NCBI GenBank assembly: GCA_001871075.1
Contig: MNUP01000058.1
Span: 1-8,224 of the forward strand
Length of the DNA: 8,224 nt
Direction of reading: 5' to 3'
Source of the DNA: Candidatus Desantisbacteria bacterium CG1_02_49_89
Lineage (GTDB): Bacteria; Desantisbacteria; UBA1551
Every line of letters begins with the position of its first letter. Position 1 is the stretch's first letter. Under the pieces are notes generated by a model. That model had not been told where the DNA came from. It saw only the letters and a list, made by a program, of their open reading frames with translations, and searched no databases. Position numbers and translations under genes: made by a program. Positions 1 to 8,224 of the stretch are shown here, one piece after another.

Positions 1-98
1 CGACCTAAAAATCGAGATTGCCACGCTCCCTTTGGTCGCTCGCAATGACAACTCAAAGCAGAATCAAATGTCAAGGGATTTATGTGACACCATACTAG
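1..98. mobile_element. Miniature inverted-repeat element, one end only (inside the gene at 1-827)
   Basis: The element ends at the CTAG at 95-98. Read on the minus strand it begins ACTAGTATGGTGTCACA, continues to the core TGTCATTGCGAG (rc of 39-50) and then GCAATCTCGA near the edge. The same architecture is seen at 1534-1719 and 8059-8224. Bases 1-92 are identical to 8132-8223. The other half of this copy lies outside the window. No transposase is encoded, so it would need one in trans. Confidence 0.7.
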
Positions 99-827
99 TA
101 AAACAAGGACATTGCACACAAAAAAGAGTAATAATACAATAGGGGCAAAAATGATATCGGTAATCAATGAAAATATTTCCTTTTTACTTTGTTTTTTTTC
201 CTGTTTAGATCGATCTTGGCTGGATTCCACATTTAGCTTCTTTTTATCTTCTCCATCTATATTCAGTGGTTCGAGGTTAAGCCGAGATGCTGTATTTATT
301 ATCAATTTATATTTACGTATTATATTTTCTAAATATTTGCGACCTGGAAATATTGTTAATGGAAATGATTTATGTGTATGTACAACTACGTTTTCAATGT
401 CTAAAATCCAACTGACAGTAATAACTCGTGATTGAAGATCAATATTTTTCTGTTCGCGTATAAATTCAATTAACTCTTTATCATATTTGTTTAAGACAAA
501 ACATATGAGCCCAAAAGAGCCTAACCTAAGGAAAGAGGGCCACACAAATGGAAAATGTAGCATGAATAACGGCATAGAATTTGCATACTTTCTTGATTCC
601 TTTACCTGCGAAAAAACTACATTACAAAAATCTGCAATATCATCTTTACCCAATCTATCTCCCTTTATAAGTAGAATCGTAAAAAAAGATCCCCAGCATT
701 TTCGCGAACCAATGAAATCCAAATTTCTTTGCTGAATAACCTGGAGTTCGGGTATTTTTGTTTTTTCAACAGAACTAAACTTTTTATCTTTTATTAATTC
801 GTTTTTTAGATACTCCATAACATCCAT
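1..827 (-). CDS. Unrecognised protein with C-terminal membrane segment, incomplete at window edge
   Basis: Reading the minus strand from the ATG at 827-825 gives 275 codons with no stop down to base 1, so the gene is incomplete in the window. A GAGG ribosome binding site lies 9 bases upstream. The protein has a mixed, probably folded N-terminal part (residues 1-190, with motifs such as SRKCWGSFF near 41 and VSWILDIENVVVHTH near 138). A very charged Lys/Glu/Gln linker follows at about 194-217, then a long hydrophobic stretch at about 218-246, likely one membrane helix or a hairpin. I do not recognise the family and assign no function. From residue 244 on, the codons lie inside an inverted-repeat mobile element, so the last 32 visible residues are probably not native. 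Codon use is AT-rich, unlike the genes right of 2530. A second in-frame ATG (codon 4) is an alternative start. Confidence 0.7.
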   Translation of the reverse strand, partial: MDVMEYLKNELIKDKKFSSVEKTKIPELQVIQQRNLDFIGSRKCWGSFFTILLIKGDRLGKDDIADFCNVVFSQVKESRKYANSMPLFMLHFPFVWPSFLRLGSFGLICFVLNKYDKELIEFIREQKNIDLQSRVITVSWILDIENVVVHTHKSFPLTIFPGRKYLENIIRKYKLIINTASRLNLEPLNIDGEDKKKLNVESSQDRSKQEKKQSKKEIFSLITDIIFAPIVLLLFFVCNVLVLLVWCHINPLTFDSALSCHCERPKGAWQSRFLG

Positions 828-830
828 AAA

Positions 831-880
831 TCGATTCCTCATCTACCTGCTATCTGCTTTCCGACTTTTATCTATATTCA
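831..880 (-). repeat. Intergenic repeat, copy A, upstream of gene 1-827
   Basis: This 50-base segment matches copy B at 1410-1459 in 42 of 50 positions and shares about 39 bases with copy C at 2488-2526. The best-kept part, read on the minus strand, is GGAAAGCAGATRGCAGGTRGAT. It ends only 3 bases before the ATG at 827 and so contributes the ribosome binding site region (GAGGAA). Similarity to copy B weakly continues to about 915. Confidence 0.75.
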
Positions 881-936
881 GCTTAAAGTCAAGGTAGGAC
901 ACTACATTCAAATCACTTTTTCTTTCTTATGCTATT

Positions 937-1377
937 TTATGGTTTAATTTTATTTATTGCTTCTTTGGCTATGGTTCTTACTCTGGTATCTTCATCATTT
1001 TCTGCAACATAAGTTAATGTCTCCAACGTAGATGTATCACCAATCCTACCAAGAGCTTCGGCTGCACAGCACCTAAGACCTGCATCCTTAAATTTCCGAA
1101 ATAGCGTAGGCACTACGGATGTATCGCCAGGTTTGCGGAGAGGCTGGTATACAGATACTCTGGGATCTACAGTTTCATCTTTTAAGGCTTCAATTAACGC
1201 AGGCACTGCGGATTTGTCACCAAGTTCACCCAGGGCCATGGCTGCGTAACGTTTGGTATCAGGGTTTCCATATTTAAGGTCATGAATGCATTCTGTTACA
1301 GCTGGATTTTGCTGAGCGTAGATAGTGATGACCAGGAAAAACAGAAAAACAGAAACTAAAGTTCTATTAAGGTTCAT
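937..1377 (-). CDS. Small exported HEAT-repeat protein
   Basis: This 146-residue protein starts with a signal peptide (hydrophobic residues 7-20, likely cut after the Ala in ITIYA, about residue 21). The rest is made of HEAT/PBS-lyase-type helical repeats: unit 1 at about 41-72 (YAAMALGELGD, AVPALIEAL), unit 2 at about 73-100, unit 3 at about 101-130 (CCAAEALGRIGD) and a final half unit (VRTIAKEAINKI). Such repeats form protein-binding solenoids; the partner cannot be told. Unit 2 is degenerate: where AAxALGKIGD is expected it reads YQPLRKPGD, two residues short. The start is supported by AGGAA a few bases upstream. It is probably periplasmic or surface-facing. It stands alone between two intergenic gaps and has its own upstream repeat copy. 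Confidence 0.85.
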   Translation of the reverse strand: MNLNRTLVSVFLFFLVITIYAQQNPAVTECIHDLKYGNPDTKRYAAMALGELGDKSAVPALIEALKDETVDPRVSVYQPLRKPGDTSVVPTLFRKFKDAGLRCCAAEALGRIGDTSTLETLTYVAENDEDTRVRTIAKEAINKIKP

Positions 1378-1409
1378 TTGGAATTCCTATTTAACAATGA
1401 TCTGCCCCA

Positions 1410-1459
1410 TCAATTTCTTATCCACCTGCCATCTGCTTTCCAACTTCTTTCTATATTCA
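1410..1459 (-). repeat. Intergenic repeat, copy B, upstream of the HEAT-repeat gene
   Basis: Read on the minus strand it runs TGAATATAGAAAGAAGTTGG, then GAAAGCAGATGGCAGGTGG, then ATAAGAAATTGA. It matches copy A (831-880) over its whole length with 8 mismatches. It lies 32 bases ahead of the HEAT gene start at 1377. The gene-free stretch 1378-1704 holds only this repeat, about 75 bases with nothing recognised (partly similar to 881-915), and the mobile element at 1534-1719. Confidence 0.75.
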
Positions 1460-1533
1460 ATGACTCAAGGGTAAGATGGGGGGTACTACACTACCATACC
1501 AATTGGAGTCGGAAAGGTAGATTATTTAATTGA

Positions 1534-1719
1534 ACTAGTGCTCTGTAACACAAATCACTGACTAATTTGTCTTTGCGAGGAACGGCAGTAACGAAGTCTC
1601 AAAGGGATCTCCCTAAGGGATCCCATAGGGACCTTCGGGACAATCTAGTATACAGATTGCCGCGTCCTTCGGGCTCGCAATGACAAGCGGATTAAAAATT
1701 AATGTTACAATGCACTAGT
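1534..1719. mobile_element. Complete miniature inverted-repeat element (MITE-like) at the 3' end of the signal peptidase gene
   Basis: The terminal inverted repeats are ACTAGTGCTCTGTAAC (1534-1549) and, reversed and complemented, ACTAGTGCATTGTAAC (1704-1719); 14 of 16 bases agree. The element is 186 bases long, with CTAG at both ends (1535-1538 and 1715-1718). Inside are further palindromes: a TTTGCGAG / CTCGCAAT pair (about 1572-1579 and 1674-1681), AGGGATC / GATCCC and CAATCT / AGATTG. No protein is encoded. IS630-type transposases are known to insert at CTAG and duplicate TA, so an IS630-like partner is a reasonable inference. The right end overlaps the last codons of the gene at 1705-2436. 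Confidence 0.8.
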
Positions 1720-2436
1720 ACGGTTGCGTGGCCAGTATATCTTTACTGCTTTTCCACGGAGGTTTTGCTTTGGAACAAATCCCCAGTACCTGCTGTCAAG
1801 GCTCTGGTCTCTGTTGTCTCCCAGCATAAACAAATGATCTTTGGGCACCTGGAAAATTCCGAGGTTATCCCTGGGGTTCTGAACGGAATACGGATAAATA
1901 TTCGGATCGTTGTGTATCTTATACGGTTCGTTCAGCGCAATCCCGTTCACATAGACCCGCTTGTTGATTATCCGCACGGTGTCACCTTCTACCGCAATGA
2001 CTCTCTTAATGAAATCTTTCTTGGGATCTTCAGGGTACTTGAACACTACGATTTCGCCCCTTTTGGGCATTTTGGTTTTATAGTTAAACATGGTAACAAA
2101 AATACGATCCCCTGGCTGAAGCGTTGGCATCATAGCTCCAGACGGTATTTTATAAGCCTTAACTACAAAAGTCCTGATAGAAGCTATTATTAAAAAAAGG
2201 ATTATAGCTAATAATGCAACCGAGCCTATTACCTTTAAAATATTCTTTCTTTCCCCTTTGGGTGGTAATGATGTAATTATTACCAACGCTATTAATCCAA
2301 AAAAGATCGCAAACAATACCCACCCAACAACATTGCGGTTTTTTCTTTTCGCAATTAAACCTGTTATTATAGAACATATAATAATTACCCCTAAAAATGT
2401 TATTGTTAACCACGATGAACTAAATATATAATCCAT
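1705..2436 (-). CDS. lepB: Signal peptidase I homologue lacking the catalytic serine
   Basis: The 243-residue protein belongs to the signal peptidase I family (peptidase S26), membrane enzymes that cut signal peptides from exported proteins. Residues 9-29 and 37-57 form a membrane hairpin, followed by a third helix at about 66-88 and the outer domain. The family boxes are clear: IPSGAMMPTL (97-106), RGEIVVFKYP (126-135), DFIKRVIAVEGD (141-152) with general-base Lys144, and GDNRDQSLDSRYWGF (206-220). In active enzymes box one reads PSGSM and the second Ser is the nucleophile; here it is Ala101 (codon GCT at 2136-2134, one base from TCT). Ser99 and Lys144 remain. The start has AGGAG 7 bases upstream. 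The final residues TSAL and the TAA come from the end of the element at 1534-1719. It may be an inactive homologue (as S. aureus SpsA is), a decaying gene, or a sequencing error. Confidence 0.9.
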   Translation of the reverse strand: MDYIFSSSWLTITFLGVIIICSIITGLIAKRKNRNVVGWVLFAIFFGLIALVIITSLPPKGERKNILKVIGSVALLAIILFLIIASIRTFVVKAYKIPSGAMMPTLQPGDRIFVTMFNYKTKMPKRGEIVVFKYPEDPKKDFIKRVIAVEGDTVRIINKRVYVNGIALNEPYKIHNDPNIYPYSVQNPRDNLGIFQVPKDHLFMLGDNRDQSLDSRYWGFVPKQNLRGKAVKIYWPRNRTSAL

Positions 2437-2487
2437 ATTGTTTCTCCTGCGCTTTTTTGAATTTAGTTAAGGATTTAATCCGTTCTA

Positions 2488-2526
2488 TCAATTCCTGATC
2501 CACCTGCCATCTGCTTTCCGGCTTTT
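2488..2526 (-). repeat. Intergenic repeat, copy C, upstream of the signal peptidase homologue
   Basis: This segment carries the shared GGAAAGCAGATGGCAGGTGG block and the following ATCAGGAATTGA, as in copies A (831-880) and B (1410-1459). It lies 51 bases ahead of the start at 2436 and 7 bases after the stop of the gene at 2534-3568. Homology to the other copies ends near 2526, where they carry TGAATATAGA and this one does not. Confidence 0.7.
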
Positions 2527-2533
2527 GGCTGTT

Positions 2534-3568
2534 TTATTGCCGCTTACAGAGCCTTTTTATTTCTTTCGTCATTTCCCGCGCTTTCTCAACGCTTTCCGCG
2601 GAAAAGCAAAAGAAGAACCGCGTGTCCGGTTTTGCCAGTGAAACACATTCCCTGGCTTCCTTGCCCCCGGGCACAAGAACAGCCTTGCCCGAGAATTTTT
2701 CTATCGACACGCCGAGGTCGGTCGGGGGATGGGACAGGTTAAGATACCGTATACCGGATAATTTAAGGAATCCATCCCATTGGTGCTGGCTGTTCGCGCA
2801 GCTGTGCATGGATATTCCGCCGAATTCAACGGACAGCTGCTGCAGGCAGGGCAGGCAAAATTCTTCGAAACAACGCGAGGATATAGAACCTATATCGTCC
2901 TCGGACAAACAGATCCCCAGTTCCGGAGGCATCCACAGATCCGGATGATGGACAAGGCATACGTCTTTATACCTGTCCCTGAACGCCCTGATAAAACCGA
3001 TCATTGTTTTAGTGACCTTTTTCAGAAGCCTGTGGACCGCGTCAGGTGATTCTACCAGTGCCAGAAAGAATGTTTCCTTTTTCCATATCAGCGCCGCGAT
3101 ATCGAACGGGCTCTGGATATCGCATATCCGCACGGGATATCCCGTGCCGCATAGCTCAACCAGCCTGTCAGCCAGCTTGAAGATCTCGCCGAGTGGCCCT
3201 GAATAGATATCAGGCTCTTTAAGCTTGTCAGCTTCCCCTGCGTCAGACACAACAGGCAGCGCGAAAGGAGCGTTATCCTGAGGCCTGTGAACCTTGCAGC
3301 CGAACGCAGCCGCAAAAACCTCTGTCCCTGACCAGGCCTGAAGCATCGGAACGCGGTCATCGCCTATTGATCCTGCTGGTCCAGCATATTCACAATCGAG
3401 CAGAAATTTCTTCCTGCCCAGCTGCGCCCTGTCTTCTATGCTGCCGTGCGTAAGGATGTTTATCTCTTCCGGGCCGGGCGCCAAATTAACCCGCACGCCA
3501 TGGCCGGGAAACGCGGAATTGCTAAATAGATCCCTGAAAAATTGCTTTTGGCTCTCTAATTTTTTCAT
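2534..3568 (-). CDS. Uroporphyrinogen decarboxylase-fold protein (URO-D superfamily)
   Basis: The 344-residue protein has the length and layout of the URO-D superfamily, a TIM-barrel group that includes heme-pathway HemE and corrinoid/coenzyme M methyltransferases (MtaA/MtbA type). Visible landmarks are QSPFDIAALIWKKETFFLAL (152-171) followed by PDAVHRLLKKVT, the PELGICLSEDDIG segment (215-227) and GISMHSCAN (251-259). HSC at 255-257 is where methyltransferase members carry the first zinc ligands; I did not identify a convincing distal cysteine ligand. The N-terminus is not HemE-like, so a true uroporphyrinogen decarboxylase is unlikely. The substrate is unknown. Only 6 bases separate it from the methyltransferase gene upstream, and it has only a weak ribosome binding site of its own, so the two are probably co-transcribed and translationally coupled. 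Confidence 0.8.
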   Translation of the reverse strand: MKKLESQKQFFRDLFSNSAFPGHGVRVNLAPGPEEINILTHGSIEDRAQLGRKKFLLDCEYAGPAGSIGDDRVPMLQAWSGTEVFAAAFGCKVHRPQDNAPFALPVVSDAGEADKLKEPDIYSGPLGEIFKLADRLVELCGTGYPVRICDIQSPFDIAALIWKKETFFLALVESPDAVHRLLKKVTKTMIGFIRAFRDRYKDVCLVHHPDLWMPPELGICLSEDDIGSISSRCFEEFCLPCLQQLSVEFGGISMHSCANSQHQWDGFLKLSGIRYLNLSHPPTDLGVSIEKFSGKAVLVPGGKEARECVSLAKPDTRFFFCFSAESVEKAREMTKEIKRLCKRQ

Positions 3569-3574
3569 TTTTAT

Positions 3575-4279
3575 TTACCATATATAAGGCAAAAGCCGGT
3601 ACTTTATCTTTTTAGCATACTCGGTATAACCGGGCAATCCTTCCTGAAGCGCTTCATCCTCAATAAAAGTGCGTATAATAAGTATGACTATCACGATAAA
3701 GGCAGGAGCAAATCCCCGCATGGACCCGAATACAAGGGGGGTGGCTGTCACGATCATAATACTGCTCAAATATCCCGGGTGCCTTATAAAACGATAAGGG
3801 CCATTCTGCGCTACTTCCTGACCGCTTTCCTTCTGCACGCGGGCGGTGCTTAAGAAAAATCTATTTGTCCACATAGACCACGAAAAAAGGCCCACTGAGG
3901 AAATATAAAGGATATATCCTATCACATATCCGTAAACGGGAAAATCTCTTGTCCATCTATACCGTCCCGTATCCAGACTTGAAACTACGAACACGCTCAA
4001 AAATATCAGCACATAGACCAGAAAAAACAGCCTATCCCGCCATTTTCCGCCAATGCTTGGTCTTTGCCGCCCTTTGTTAAAACCTGCGTTTGCCGAGAAT
4101 ATCACTAACTGGATCACGAAGAGAATTATATTGATCCAGATAAAGAACCACCCCTGCCGGGAACGGACCCTGCCGATCGCCATGATCACCAGCGTAAAGA
4201 TCACTAACACAAGAAAACCCTTCAAAATTGGTTTGACATGGCGGAAATATTCTTTTATAAAGTCTCCGAATTTAAGCAT
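3575..4279 (-). CDS. Membrane methyltransferase of the isoprenylcysteine carboxyl methyltransferase (ICMT/PEMT-like) family
   Basis: The 234-residue integral membrane protein has hydrophobic segments at about 17-36, 44-63, 84-101, 115-137, 171-188 and 190-204. The C-terminal third shows the family signature: NGPYRFIRHPGYLSSI (159-174), with the RHPGY S-adenosylmethionine-binding loop, and RTFIEDEALQEGLPGYTEYA (203-222), ending KYRLLPYIW. Family members methylate prenylated cysteine, phospholipid or other membrane-bound acceptors; bacterial members are mostly of unknown substrate. The start at 4279 has GGGAACGGAGC just upstream. It is the first gene of a probable two-gene operon with the URO-D-fold protein, preceded by a plausible promoter (4340-4368) and a leader hairpin (4301-4336). 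Confidence 0.87.
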   Translation of the reverse strand: MLKFGDFIKEYFRHVKPILKGFLVLVIFTLVIMAIGRVRSRQGWFFIWINIILFVIQLVIFSANAGFNKGRQRPSIGGKWRDRLFFLVYVLIFLSVFVVSSLDTGRYRWTRDFPVYGYVIGYILYISSVGLFSWSMWTNRFFLSTARVQKESGQEVAQNGPYRFIRHPGYLSSIMIVTATPLVFGSMRGFAPAFIVIVILIIRTFIEDEALQEGLPGYTEYAKKIKYRLLPYIW

Positions 4280-4300
4280 GCTCCGTTCCCTTCAAATCAA

Positions 4301-4336
4301 AAACCCACTCATTTTAATTTTGGATTGAGTGGATTT
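4301..4336 (-). terminator. Leader hairpin followed by a T-run (possible attenuator)
   Basis: On the minus strand AAATCCACTCA (4336-4326 side) can pair with TGAGTGGGTTT over 11 bases including one G-U pair, with a 14-base loop; TTTTTG follows directly. The structure lies between the putative promoter at 4340-4368 and the start at 4279. It looks like a weak intrinsic terminator in the leader, or the end of an upstream transcript. The stem is only moderately GC-rich. Confidence 0.4.
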
Positions 4337-4339
4337 AGT

Positions 4340-4368
4340 TTTATGCCCTGAGCAAAAAAACGGGTCAA
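4340..4368 (-). promoter_or_regulatory. Putative sigma70-type promoter for the methyltransferase/URO-D pair
   Basis: On the minus strand TTGACC (4368-4363) and CATAAA (4345-4340) are separated by 17 bases. They match the -35 and -10 consensus in 5/6 and 4/6 positions. It lies about 60 bases ahead of the start at 4279. This is pattern matching only; the lineage's sigma factor preference is unknown. Confidence 0.4.
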
Positions 4369-4471
4369 TAACGCAGACTTCTTCGTTATGCTGAAAACCT
4401 GACCTTGCCACAAATCCTCCAAAAGCTGTTATTTTGCCCGGGAAGGAACTATTCTTGTCTTAATGCTGCAA

Positions 4472-4611
4472 AATCCCCCTTAATCCCCCTTTTATAAAGG
4501 GGGAAACAGGGCGGGCTTGCCCGCCCCTACGCGCACCCCCCTCACCTCATTCCTCTCCCTCAAAGGGCGAGGAAGATTAGGAATAAATATTTTCGAGGGG
4601 GCGAGGAAGAT
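4472..4611. repeat. Cluster of intergenic palindromes and direct repeats
   Basis: Four units sit in tandem. AATCCCCCTT occurs twice (4472-4481, 4482-4491); the second runs into the palindrome CCCCCTTT-TAT-AAAGGGGG (4485-4503). GGGCGGGC-TT-GCCCGCCC follows (4509-4526). Then comes the hairpin CCTCTCCCT / AGGGCGAGG (4552-4572), and GGGCGAGGAAGAT occurs twice (4565-4577, 4599-4611). Similar palindromes are common in intergenic DNA of many bacteria. The cluster lies just downstream of nadA and may end or stabilise its transcript, although no clear T-run follows. The rest of the gene-free stretch 4280-4625 shows nothing else beyond the leader features. Confidence 0.7.
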
Positions 4612-4625
4612 CAAGGAGTAAAATC

Positions 4626-5540
4626 CTATTTAACGGCAAGCATGCGGTCAACTGAGGACTTGGCTTTAAGGCGGATCTCTTCCGGCACCTTTATCTCGTT
4701 CTTCATGTCCTGGAGCGACCAGAGGACCTTTTCAAGGTTTATGCGCTTCATGTTCGGGCAGATCGCGAGTTCGGACGCGGGATAAAATTTCTTATCCGGG
4801 TTTTCCTTGCGCAGGCGGTGAAGCATCCCTATCTCTGTGCCTATTATGAATTCCTTCGCGCTGCTTTCCTTCGCGAACTTACACATCCCGCCCGTTGAAA
4901 CCACCCGGTCTGCGAGCGCTGCCACAGCAGGAGTGCATTCGGGATGGACCATAACCTCTGCCTGGGGGTGGAGCGCCCTTTCGCGCAGGATGTCCTCCGG
5001 GATTATCTTTATGTGAGTGGGGCAGTACCCGTCCCAAATAATGAATTTCTTTTTCACGCACGAAGACGTGTAATGCGCAAGGTATTTGTCAGGCACGAAT
5101 ATAACCTCGGGCGAATCCACTGATTCGGCAACCCTCACCGCGTTGGTGGAAGTGCAGCAGATGAAAGCTTCTGCTTTCACTTCCGCGCTTGTGTTCACGT
5201 AAGCTATAGCCGGGGCGTTGGGATACTCCTTCATAAGGGCGCGCAGGCCTCCGGCGTTGATCATATCAGCCATGGGGCAGCCGGCGTTTATATCCGGCAA
5301 AAGCACTGTTTTGTCCGGGCAGAGGATAGAGGCGGTCTCAGCCATAAAGTGCACACCGCAGAACACTATTACCCTGGAGTCTGTCTGGCTTGCAATACGG
5401 CTGAGCTCAAGCGAATCCCCGGTGTAGTCCGCTATGTCCTGCACCTCGCCCAGCTGGTAGTTGTGCACGAGCAGTATCGCCTTGCGCTTTTCCTTTAAGC
5501 GCATTATTTCTTCTATCAGGCCCGCGTCATCGCTGTACAT
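4626..5540 (-). CDS. nadA: Quinolinate synthase (NadA)
   Basis: NadA condenses iminoaspartate with dihydroxyacetone phosphate to quinolinate, a cytoplasmic step of de novo NAD synthesis, using a [4Fe-4S] cluster. Numbered from the start at 5540 (304 residues, usual for the short NadA type), family motifs are HNYQLGEVQDIADYTGDSL (26-44), GVHFMAETA (62-70), YVNTSAEVKA (114-123), CTSTNAV (129-135), MVHPECTP (197-204), STGGM (215-219) and GTEIGMLHR (234-242). Likely cluster ligands are Cys88 (AGCPMADM), Cys173 (DGYCPTH) and Cys261 (CPNMKRI). GGAGG lies 4 bases ahead of the ATG at 5540. An in-frame ATG at 5561 would add 7 residues but falls in a tandem repeat and has no ribosome binding site. No nadB or nadC is visible. 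The gene is probably expressed separately from ccdA, 237 bases upstream. Confidence 0.96.
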   Translation of the reverse strand: MYSDDAGLIEEIMRLKEKRKAILLVHNYQLGEVQDIADYTGDSLELSRIASQTDSRVIVFCGVHFMAETASILCPDKTVLLPDINAGCPMADMINAGGLRALMKEYPNAPAIAYVNTSAEVKAEAFICCTSTNAVRVAESVDSPEVIFVPDKYLAHYTSSCVKKKFIIWDGYCPTHIKIIPEDILRERALHPQAEVMVHPECTPAVAALADRVVSTGGMCKFAKESSAKEFIIGTEIGMLHRLRKENPDKKFYPASELAICPNMKRINLEKVLWSLQDMKNEIKVPEEIRLKAKSSVDRMLAVK

Positions 5541-5544
5541 TTTT

Positions 5545-5549
5545 CCTCC
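5545..5549 (-). promoter_or_regulatory. Ribosome binding site deciding the nadA start
   Basis: The sequence GGAGG on the minus strand, 4 bases before the ATG at 5540, picks that start over the upstream ATG at 5561, which lies inside the 7-base tandem repeat. Confidence 0.8.
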
Positions 5550-5556
5550 AAAAACA

Positions 5557-5584
5557 GTCATTTGTCATTAGTCATTTGTCATTT
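5557..5584. repeat. Tandem 7-base repeat, four units, ahead of nadA
   Basis: GTCATTT is repeated four times head to tail (5557-5563, 5564-5570 with final A, 5571-5577, 5578-5584). It lies 16 bases upstream of the nadA start, between the ribosome binding site and any promoter, so copy number changes would alter the leader. Confidence 0.8.
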
Positions 5585-5594
5585 GTTTAAACCT

Positions 5595-5619
5595 GTTACG
5601 TGTTGCCGTGTTACGTGTT
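5595..5619. repeat. Direct repeat GTTACGTGTT, two copies
   Basis: GTTACGTGTT occurs at 5595-5604 and 5610-5619, 15 bases apart. It is part of the repeat-rich spacer between ccdA and nadA. Confidence 0.65.
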
Positions 5620-5688
5620 AACAACTGCTAAAAATCGTTAAAATCGCTCAATAGTTCAATAGTCTAATGATCCATTAGTACAAGGAAT

Positions 5689-5728
5689 CAGGGCTGAAGC
5701 CCTGAGTTACATGTGCGATGAATCGCAC
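5689..5728. repeat. Two adjacent perfect hairpins
   Basis: CAGGGCT-GA-AGCCCTG (5689-5704) is followed after 8 bases by GTGCGAT-GA-ATCGCAC (5713-5728). Both have 7-base perfect stems and the same GA loop. They lie downstream of ccdA on its transcript and could end it or protect it, but no T-run follows on the minus strand. Confidence 0.7.
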
Positions 5729-5735
5729 CGCTACT

Positions 5736-5775
5736 CTGACACTTTGACACGTTGATACGTTGACACGCTGACACG
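5736..5775. repeat. Tandem 8-base repeat, five units, after ccdA
   Basis: Five imperfect copies of TTGACACG run head to tail (5736, 5744, 5752, 5760, 5768). They end 2 bases before the ccdA stop codon at 5778-5780. The other spacer sequence in 5541-5777 (5620-5688) shows no further structure beyond short echoes such as TCAATAG / TCAATAG. Confidence 0.75.
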
Positions 5776-5777
5776 TT

Positions 5778-6479
5778 TTAAAAGCGGATAAGGCCGGTGA
5801 CAAGCGCGATGCCCATAAAAACGAGCAGAAGACCGGAAACCATAGAGATAATTTTAAAATATTTCTTTATTTTCACGAAGAGGCTGAAAACAAGTCCCAC
5901 GAAAATGCTGGTAAGGATAAACGGTATCGCAAGCCCAAGCGAGTAGAAGCTCAGGAGCTTTATGCCCTCGCTCATGTTTTCCTTGGTTGCCGCGATCGCG
6001 AGAATGCTGCCCAGTATGGGCCCAACACAGGGCGTCCACCCAAGAGCGAAAACAAAACCTATCACAAATGAACCCAGCGCGTGCGCGGGCTTGGTATCAA
6101 AGTGGATCTTTTTTTCGATCTGCAGGAATTTCAGGTTGAAGAACCCGGCAACCTGAAGCCCCAAAACGATCACTATTATCCCGCCGATAAGCCCGATAAG
6201 CCGGCGGTTGGAGAAAAGAAAGTTACTGAGTAAAGTCGCGGACGCGCCAAGCGCTATGAATACAACCGAGAATCCCAGCACGAAAAGAAGCGTCTGTCCA
6301 AGGATCCTGGCAAGGTTTTTACTCACTATGGTCTTGGAGCCGCTCTCCCGCAACTCGTCTGCAGAGAACCCCGTAAGGAATGAGAGGTAAACCGGGATAA
6401 GGGGCAGTATGCAGGGGGAGAAGAAAGAAAGAAGCCCTGCTCCGAACGCCATCATAAGAGAAGGAACGCTGGTTTCCAC
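5778..6479 (-). CDS. ccdA: Cytochrome c biogenesis protein CcdA (thiol-disulfide electron carrier)
   Basis: CcdA passes reducing power from cytoplasmic thioredoxin across the inner membrane to extracytoplasmic thioredoxin-like proteins. The 233-residue protein has about six membrane helices and the paired cysteine motifs expected: LSFFSPCILPLIPVYLSFLTG around Cys23 and GWTPCVGPILGSILA around Cys151. Length is normal for the short CcdA form. The first codon is GTG at 6479, 2 bases after the stop of the TlpA-like gene, with AAGG about 10 bases upstream, so translation is probably coupled. Met9/Met10 are possible starts but lack a ribosome binding site and would cut into helix one. The neighbouring TlpA-like lipoprotein is the obvious partner to be kept reduced. 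Confidence 0.95.
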   Translation of the reverse strand: METSVPSLMMAFGAGLLSFFSPCILPLIPVYLSFLTGFSADELRESGSKTIVSKNLARILGQTLLFVLGFSVVFIALGASATLLSNFLFSNRRLIGLIGGIIVIVLGLQVAGFFNLKFLQIEKKIHFDTKPAHALGSFVIGFVFALGWTPCVGPILGSILAIAATKENMSEGIKLLSFYSLGLAIPFILTSIFVGLVFSLFVKIKKYFKIISMVSGLLLVFMGIALVTGLIRF

Positions 6480-6481
6480 TG

Positions 6482-7009
6482 TTATTTACCTTTTTCAAGC
6501 AGTTCCAGTATTACCTGCTCGAACTCTTTCCTGCCTGTCAGGCCCAGGAAACTTTTCACGCTGTTGCCGTCTTTGTCTATGATGAATGTCGTCGGTATTC
6601 CCCGGCTTATATTGTATTTGTCACCGATCTTGTTATCGCCCATCACAAGGATGTAATTTATACCGTTTTTCTCGGCGAATTTCTTCACGGTTTCCGCTCT
6701 TTTATCAAGCGAAACGCCTACCACTTCAAAGCCCTTGTCCGCAAGATCCTTCCTCATCGCGATCAGGTCGGGTATTTCATCCACGCAGTAACCGCACCAG
6801 GTAGCCCAGAAATCGAGCAGTATTACCTTCCCCTTAAGGGAGGAAAGCGTGAAATTGGTCCCGTCCAGCTGCTTGAGGGTGAAATCAGGGGAGTCACCCC
6901 ATTCCACGGCCTTTTTCGCTTTTTCCGCGCACCCGGCAAGCATGCAAAGCGATAACACGGATACGCACATTATCAGGATAACCGAGAACGTCTTTCCGTT
7001 TTTGGCCAT
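6482..7009 (-). CDS. TlpA/ResA-like thioredoxin lipoprotein
   Basis: This 175-residue protein has a lipoprotein signal peptide (hydrophobic 8-24) with the lipobox LAGC and lipidated Cys27, so it should be anchored to a membrane facing the periplasm. The thioredoxin fold follows: PDFTLKQLDG (41-50), LLDFWATWCGYC (64-75) with active-site Cys72 and Cys75, GVSLDK (98-103) and the cis-proline loop GIPTTFIID (137-145, Pro139). This is the TlpA/ResA/AhpC-TSA-like type that reduces protein disulfides, often in cytochrome c or copper-site assembly; the client cannot be told here. AGGAGG lies 4 bases upstream of the ATG at 7009. It sits directly before ccdA (2-base gap) and is probably recharged by it. 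Confidence 0.93.
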   Translation of the reverse strand: MAKNGKTFSVILIMCVSVLSLCMLAGCAEKAKKAVEWGDSPDFTLKQLDGTNFTLSSLKGKVILLDFWATWCGYCVDEIPDLIAMRKDLADKGFEVVGVSLDKRAETVKKFAEKNGINYILVMGDNKIGDKYNISRGIPTTFIIDKDGNSVKSFLGLTGRKEFEQVILELLEKGK

Positions 7010-7030
7010 TGTTCCTCCTGTTTAAATACA

Positions 7031-7103
7031 GATCGAGATTAAGGTACTGACGAAGCGACCACATATCGAGATTGCTTCGTCATTTCATTCCTCGCAATGA
7101 CAT
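7031..7103. repeat. Degenerate copy of the CATTGCGAG palindrome
   Basis: The right part, ATCGAGATTGCTTC (about 7065-7078) ... CCTCGCAATGACATG (7090-7104), matches the right half of the element at 8059-8224 (ATCGAGATTGCC ... GCTCGCAATGACA). The left part GATCGAGATT (7031-7040) and GACGAAGCGA echo the same core. No CTAG ends are present, so it is a truncated or core-only copy. It fills most of the 102-base gap between the permease and the TlpA-like gene. Confidence 0.65.
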
Positions 7104-7111
7104 GAAAAGCA

Positions 7112-8020
7112 TTAACCTATGAAGGAAAAGATGTAGCCAAGGACCAGCGAGGAAATTGAAACAAACGTCAGATAGATTATGAGTATCTTCCAGCCGAATT
7201 CCTTTTTTAAAACAAGTATATTGCCGTATGAGGTGATGGGGCCGGCAAGCAGAAGCACGAATCCGGCTCCCCTGCTCAATCCCTGCGCTATGAAAGCGTG
7301 CACGAGCGGAACGCTTGCAGTTGAACAAATGTACATAACCAGACCGAAAACAAGGGCGAAAAGGTAACCGGAAAACCCCAGCAGGTATTTTTCCATAAGT
7401 ATCCTGATGAACGGGACGGAAACAACCGCGGCTGCAAGCAGGATCCCTATAATGAGTTCAACTCCCATTTCTTTGGGTATGTCAATAAATCCGTAGGTCA
7501 GGACGGAAGCGATCCTGTTCCAGAATCCCTTCCGGTGGTGCCGGTGGTTTTCGTGCTCTCCCTCGCAGCACATCGGGCAGCCTTCTTCAACGCTCTCTAC
7601 CTCAGGATATTTCAGGCGGTTGCCGATTATGCCTATCATCAGTCCCATAAGGACAACGCTGAGGCACAGGAAAAGCGTGAAAGCGGGCCCGAGTAGTTTC
7701 CAGGTAACCAGGATCGCGGACACGGACGTGGCAGGAGTCGCGATGAGGAAAGCGAGCACCGGGCCAAGAGGAACGCCCTTTTTCCTGAACGCCATCGCGA
7801 CCGGCAAAGAACCGAAACAGCACAAAGGCAGTATCATACCCAGGATGGTCACGTAGATAATGGGCAGAATGCCCTTTTTCGCAAGGTGTTTTTCGACGAT
7901 GCTCTGCGGCAGGAACTCGTGTATTATGCCGCTGAGCAGGAAACCCAGCGCGATGCTGGGAAGGATGTCCAGAGCGTAATGCCCAAGGTGGCCCAGGAAG
8001 TGTTTGAAAAACATTTCCAT
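7112..8020 (-). CDS. Permease, DUF318/ArsP-like (SO_0444-type metal efflux) family
   Basis: The 302-residue protein has two membrane halves of about four helices each, joined by a soluble loop. Family landmarks are ILPLCCFGSLPVAMAFRKKG (63-82), FLIATPATSVSA (91-102), YICSTASVPLVHAF (230-243) and LLAGPITSYGNIL (257-269). This fold includes ArsP and the SO_0444-type Cu/Zn efflux permeases. The loop at about 148-163 is rich in metal-binding residues: CPMCC followed by HENHRHH. Cys67-Cys68 sit in the first conserved helix pair. Export of a soft metal ion or metalloid is an inference from family and residues. The start at 8020 has only a weak GGAA upstream; Met3 is an alternative. It is probably the first gene of a unit with the TlpA-like gene and ccdA. 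Confidence 0.85.
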   Translation of the reverse strand: MEMFFKHFLGHLGHYALDILPSIALGFLLSGIIHEFLPQSIVEKHLAKKGILPIIYVTILGMILPLCCFGSLPVAMAFRKKGVPLGPVLAFLIATPATSVSAILVTWKLLGPAFTLFLCLSVVLMGLMIGIIGNRLKYPEVESVEEGCPMCCEGEHENHRHHRKGFWNRIASVLTYGFIDIPKEMGVELIIGILLAAAVVSVPFIRILMEKYLLGFSGYLFALVFGLVMYICSTASVPLVHAFIAQGLSRGAGFVLLLAGPITSYGNILVLKKEFGWKILIIYLTFVSISSLVLGYIFSFIG

Positions 8021-8049
8021 GTGAGTTCCGATTGCTTCTTCGATCCTGG

Positions 8050-8077
8050 ATACTAGATACTAGTGTGGTGCGTCTAA
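8050..8077 (-). promoter_or_regulatory. Possible promoter for the permease unit, partly within the mobile element
   Basis: On the minus strand TTAGAC (8077-8072) and TAGTAT (8055-8050) are 16 bases apart, resembling -35 and -10 boxes, about 30 bases ahead of the start at 8020. The -35-like box lies inside the inverted-repeat element and the -10-like box just outside it. This is weak pattern evidence. Confidence 0.25.
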
Positions 8078-8224
8078 CAGTTCTTTACATTTGGGCTGTC
8101 ATTGCGAGGAGTGTTAACGACGAAGCAATCTCGACCTAAAAATCGAGATTGCCACGCTCCCTTTGGTCGCTCGCAATGACAACTCAAAGCAGAATCAAAT
8201 GTCAAGGGATTTATGTGACACCAC
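8059..8224. mobile_element. Miniature inverted-repeat element upstream of the permease, cut by the window end
   Basis: It begins ACTAGTGTGGTG (8059-8070) and the window stops at CACCAC, the complement of GTGGTG, just where the matching end should be; about 5 bases seem to be missing. The core is a nested palindrome: TGTCATTGCGAG (8097-8108) with CTCGCAATGACA (8170-8181), and GCAATCTCGA (8125-8134) with TCGAGATTGC (8143-8152) around an 8-base loop. No protein is encoded. Bases 8132-8223 are identical to 1-92. Confidence 0.75.
8132..8223. repeat. 92-base direct repeat shared with the window start (1-92)
   Basis: Every base from 8132 to 8223 equals 1 to 92; the next base differs (C at 8224, T at 93). 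The shared segment begins inside the hairpin stem of the mobile element. It reflects either two copies of a young element or overlapping ends of a circular or repeat-bounded assembly. Confidence 0.9.

Follow-up and report, generated by a model that had tools for sequence, protein, structure and literature searches.

The window, the whole 8,224-nucleotide stretch of DNA analysed here, corresponds to an entire contig (C141). A 243-residue ORF on its minus strand (1705..2436) encodes an S26 signal peptidase paralogue. Signal peptidase I cuts the export tag from secreted proteins. The ORF matches PF10502 (Pfam; E 1.3e-53, 181.9 bits vs a cut-off of 22.9) and the NCBIfam equivalog model TIGR02227 (178.5 bits vs a cut-off of 47), and by homology and fold its membership in S26/TIGR02227 is beyond doubt. 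A Shine-Dalgarno-like AGGAG lies directly before the ATG (2437..2450, minus strand; GCAGGAGAAACAAT-ATG).

Active signal peptidase I uses a nucleophilic serine in box B (SxSM) and a general-base lysine in box D. In the window protein, box B reads IPSGAMMPTL. The plus strand at 2134..2136 is AGC, which gives the minus-strand codon GCT (Ala101), and a phmmer alignment with a count of columns places this residue opposite the nucleophile of E. coli LepB, Ser90. Two further residues were located in the LepB alignment. Lys144 (2005..2007, minus strand; FIKRVIA) is kept opposite the general base Lys145, and Ser99 (2140..2142, minus strand) is kept opposite Ser88, the substrate-contacting, oxyanion-side serine. 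Box E (GDNRDQSLDSRYWG, residues 206-219; 1780..1821, minus strand) is intact. The original prediction, that alanine replaces the catalytic serine while Lys144, Ser99, and the GDNRDxSxDSRxWG box are retained, holds in the sequence and in the LepB alignment. The Ser-Lys dyad is broken in the manner of a pseudo-signal-peptidase by loss of the serine; the lysine is kept, unlike in SipA and SpsA.

Ahead of the catalytic domain lies an AT-rich N-terminal membrane part (residues 1-90; 2167..2436, minus strand) with helices predicted at residues 7-31, 36-55, and 63-90. It matches no Pfam family above the cut-off, and no other relative of it was found in the same genome. The composition of the contig breaks just beyond this gene. 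GC3 is 0.27-0.42 for genes at 3-2436 (window 1-2500), compared with 0.50-0.67 for genes at 2534-8020 (window 2534-8224), and the AT-rich part that holds the Ala copy is perhaps an acquired stretch.

The window copy's neighbours encode a HEAT-repeat protein, a URO-D/MtaA-like protein, a methyltransferase, NadA, a CcdA-like protein, a TlpA/ResA-like protein, and a permease. A 280-residue ORF (3-842, minus strand), open at the contig end, has no Pfam or NCBIfam match. Three copies of a 58-nucleotide element, 71-78% alike (821-878, 1400-1457, and 2478-2535), sit at or just upstream of the starts of successive minus-strand genes: this unassigned ORF, the HEAT-repeat protein, and the signal peptidase. 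Three more partial copies occur elsewhere in the genome (C117, C142, and C73). The search for RNA elements returned no Rfam match. Both ends of the contig carry an identical 92-nucleotide repeat (1-92 and 8132-8223), which matches about 50 places in the genome, mostly with 98-100% identity; many of these places are close to contig ends. This dispersed repeat probably broke the assembly. Its abundance supports the binning of the contig and explains the fragmentation, and a circular element was rejected as the cause of the shared ends.

The genome (2.48 Mb in 150 contigs, 93.5% complete) contains one further S26 gene besides the window copy. This second, intact lepB, for which a search had been proposed together with the original prediction, encodes 251 residues with IPSGSM and an intact Lys and box E (G000:C3:26285-26776, minus strand; the C3 copy). 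Judged from its residues, it is the active S26 enzyme looked for beside a pseudo-signal-peptidase, and its presence means that the cell need not rely on the window copy. The two proteins are 72% identical over residues 77-240, with little similarity before about residue 86. GC3 differs along the same boundary, being 0.24 (residues 1-86) and 0.52 (catalytic part) in the window copy vs 0.63 and 0.70 in the C3 copy; overall, the Ala copy has a GC3 of 0.42 vs 0.68 for the intact copy.

We then compared how the two paralogues have evolved. In a tree of 100 rows they form a sister pair (support 100/99) with similar branch lengths (0.62 v 0.59). Their catalytic domains diverge with a dN of 0.18 and a dS of 1.8, giving a dN/dS of about 0.10. 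When changes were polarised against 99 relatives, each copy had a mean of 7.4 unique changes, so the Ala copy has not evolved faster than the C3 copy. Of the 28 columns with at least 90% conservation, the window copy keeps 25 and departs at Ser101, 116, and 128. The C3 copy also departs at 116 and 128, which leaves the nucleophile as the one residue that the window copy alone has lost in these columns. Residue 116 is Met in the window copy, Arg in C3, and Lys in relatives (98% conserved). A rough calculation limits unconstrained drift of the Ala copy to at most about 5% of the time since the paralogues split. It follows that the change from Ser to Ala either happened recently or is an old one in a protein that has been retained for a different role.

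Alanine at the nucleophile position is rare. Over 103 aligned rows, this column holds Ser in 101 (one of them a second row for the C3 copy), Tyr in one, and Ala in one, the window protein alone. A DNA motif for IP[S/T]GAMxPT was found in 1 of 386 genomes drawn from across the domain, the window genome itself. The matching Ser-version motif was present in 40 of 145 genomes, so such a scan detects the signal peptidases of only about 28% of genomes, and the negative result for Ala is limited likewise. Together, the column and motif counts place Ala at the nucleophile well beyond chance. No close orthologue of the Ala copy was found in the genome contigs (best match about 53% identity, all with Ser), among viral contigs, or within the phylum (two genomes); among all these sequences its nearest relative is its own paralogue, C3. 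The phylum's only other genome here (G001, of the same order, 87% complete) has zero S26 matches; either the sequence is missing from the assembly or the organism has an unusual signal peptidase. Our search of the open-access literature found no description of a natural S26 protein that has lost the serine alone.

A looser Ala motif gave two further matches in the 386 genomes (G030 and G315). The G315 match, IPWLAMPTTL, was judged a probable coincidence and left aside. In G030, the match falls in a 366-residue S26 paralogue on contig C17 (L113, 1089-2189, minus strand) with IPSAAMENTL, FVKRLVG, and GDNRDFSKDSRFWG. This paralogue resembles the window protein in its change from Ser to Ala, its retained Lys and box E, its extra N-terminal membrane region, and its intact sister copy, which in G030 reads IPSGSMEDTL. 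It differs in having a longer N-terminus, which matches DUF5683 weakly and below the threshold, and in its independent origin. In two other genomes of the G030 class, every copy has Ser. A tree constrained to unite the two Ala proteins is worse by 60.7 log-likelihood units, and a common origin is rejected (p-AU 8e-5). The serine has thus been replaced by alanine on at least two occasions; both of the duplicates concerned carry an N-terminal membrane region of their own, and both have an intact sister.

The single Tyr row in the alignment (L018, genome G004) was considered as a misalignment, and this was rejected; the protein is an S26 paralogue in which Tyr and Gly stand where Ser and Lys would be. 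In this G004 paralogue (L127, G004:C14) box E is intact, and G004 also carries an intact S26 gene, a pattern like that of SipA in another lineage. A nucleophile-replaced paralogue beside an intact copy was therefore seen in 3 of the 31 genomes first sampled (the window genome, G030, and G004), and such pseudo-peptidases may be commoner outside Gram-positive bacteria than the papers cited here describe.

An AlphaFold model of the window protein (62 sequences; mean pLDDT 80.6) places three helices ahead of a beta domain, and the catalytic domain is predicted to have the S26 fold. The top VIA-align match of the model is S. pyogenes SipA (Z 14.4, 129 residues, rmsd 2.4), followed by E. coli LepB (Z 13.3-13.7) and SpsB (Z 13.2-13.5). 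Z differences below 1 were counted as ties, so SipA is tied with LepB.

We consider the window protein to be, more likely than not, a pseudo-signal-peptidase, a catalytically dead paralogue of the signal peptidase I encoded elsewhere in this genome, and a putative non-cutting binder. The three predicted membrane helices would anchor the catalytic domain at the outer face of the cytoplasmic membrane. There, signal peptides would lodge by their Ala-X-Ala ends in the preserved groove and stay uncut, or a comparable segment of a single client would do so. The protein may in this way hold exported proteins, chaperone them, or compete for them, leaving general cutting to the C3 copy. Signal-peptide binding is suggested by the cleft of SipA, which lacks activity, by SpsB S36A, and by LepB, where a model has Ser88 (P2 and P1 contacts) and other S1-S2 residues touching the substrate (PMC2259416); the aligned residues are kept in the window protein. 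The neighbouring genes suggest no client in family scans of the eight other window ORFs. No orthologue with a conserved Ala101 is known, which weakens the case for selection of the dead state. The Met at residue 116 also counts against this reading, though C3 departs there too.

The strongest alternative is a recently inactivated duplicate in early decay, in which the serine was lost by chance from a redundant gene that nothing maintains. We regard this as a possible but distinctly less probable account. It draws on the intact C3 copy, which makes the loss tolerable, on the lack of an orthologue with conserved Ala, and on the AT-rich surroundings (GC3 of 0.42 for the gene vs 0.50-0.67 for genes at 2534-8020 and 0.68 for the intact copy). 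Against it, the reading frame and the ribosome-binding-like site are intact, 25 of the 28 strongly conserved columns are kept with one unique departure, and the evolutionary rate equals that of the intact copy, leaving at most about 5% of the time since the split for free decay. The same loss in the unrelated G030, where the rest of the active site is also kept, argues in the same direction. The substitution could nevertheless be recent enough to have left no trace.

If the Ala codon came from an error in the consensus, or from a minor strain variant in a fragmented assembly, the true gene would encode an ordinary active enzyme. With 150 contigs in the genome and one base separating the Ala and Ser codons, such an error is conceivable, but a single error would have to strike precisely the nucleophile codon. 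The independent G030 case, a second paralogue with the same change and an intact copy elsewhere, is not predicted by random errors, and we judge this explanation improbable. Of the three options first offered (a non-cutting homologue, a gene beginning to decay, or a base error), the constraint on the gene and the G030 case thus favour the non-cutting homologue over the base error, and a very recent inactivation retains the lesser likelihood given above. That the protein is still a protease through another nucleophile, either Ser99 or a water activated by Lys144, is very improbable even with Ser99, Lys144, and the box E residues kept, because Ser99 is a normal family residue and not newly gained (relatives have Ser (68) or Thr (33) in this column alongside the true nucleophile), it aligns with the substrate-contacting E. 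coli Ser88 (PMC2259416), the authors of PMC4704075 regard SpsB S36A as a catalytic mutant, and no new Ser, Thr, or Cys lies next to residue 101.

Dead signal peptidases are a kind of protein already known from a few other bacteria, and TIGR02227 would name the window protein 'signal peptidase I' despite its missing cutting residue. If the non-cutting paralogue is retained for binding, it is a natural counterpart of the laboratory-made dead mutant and could reveal the role of a signal-peptide holder in the cell. A broader and rather doubtful conjecture is that duplicates of signal peptidase have repeatedly been turned, in several unrelated bacterial lineages, into retained proteins that bind signal peptides and do not cut them, through the minimal change from Ser to Ala and a new membrane-embedded N-terminus, forming an unnoticed layer of export control. 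If true, the holding or shielding of chosen preproteins from cleavage would lie hidden beneath the 'signal peptidase I' annotation.

Among known systems, E. coli LepB (1b12, 1t7d) shares the fold and boxes of the window protein, at about 41% identity over 138-142 aligned residues. LepB differs in having Ser90 where the window protein has Ala101, a larger cap insertion, and a different N-terminal membrane part. Streptococcus pyogenes SipA/LepA (4n31, 4k8w) also has the S26 fold and a peptide-binding cleft, lacks the nucleophile, and is membrane-anchored. SipA has lost the dyad, with Asp48 and Gly85 standing for Ser and Lys; it retains the peptide cleft and is inactive as a peptidase, and pili do not polymerise without it (PMC4049620). 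The window protein, 22-25% identical, instead retains Lys and box E, and the pilin or sortase genes that mark the SipA locus are absent from the eight other window ORFs, the contig ending on both sides.

Staphylococcus aureus SpsA is a natural inactive type I signal peptidase alongside the active SpsB, and the window copy is likewise paired. The parallel is only approximate: two conserved catalytic residues are missing from SpsA (PMC12445088), against one, the serine, from the window protein. SpsB S36A, studied as an MBP fusion by Ting et al., carries the same substitution at the aligned position; it folds and served as the catalytic mutant for crystallisation (PMC4704075). That substitution was engineered and the alanine of the window protein is natural, and SpsB is about 31-35% identical to it in the fold comparisons. 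The best reading is that the window copy is akin to SipA and SpsA but lacks the serine alone, as in SpsB S36A.
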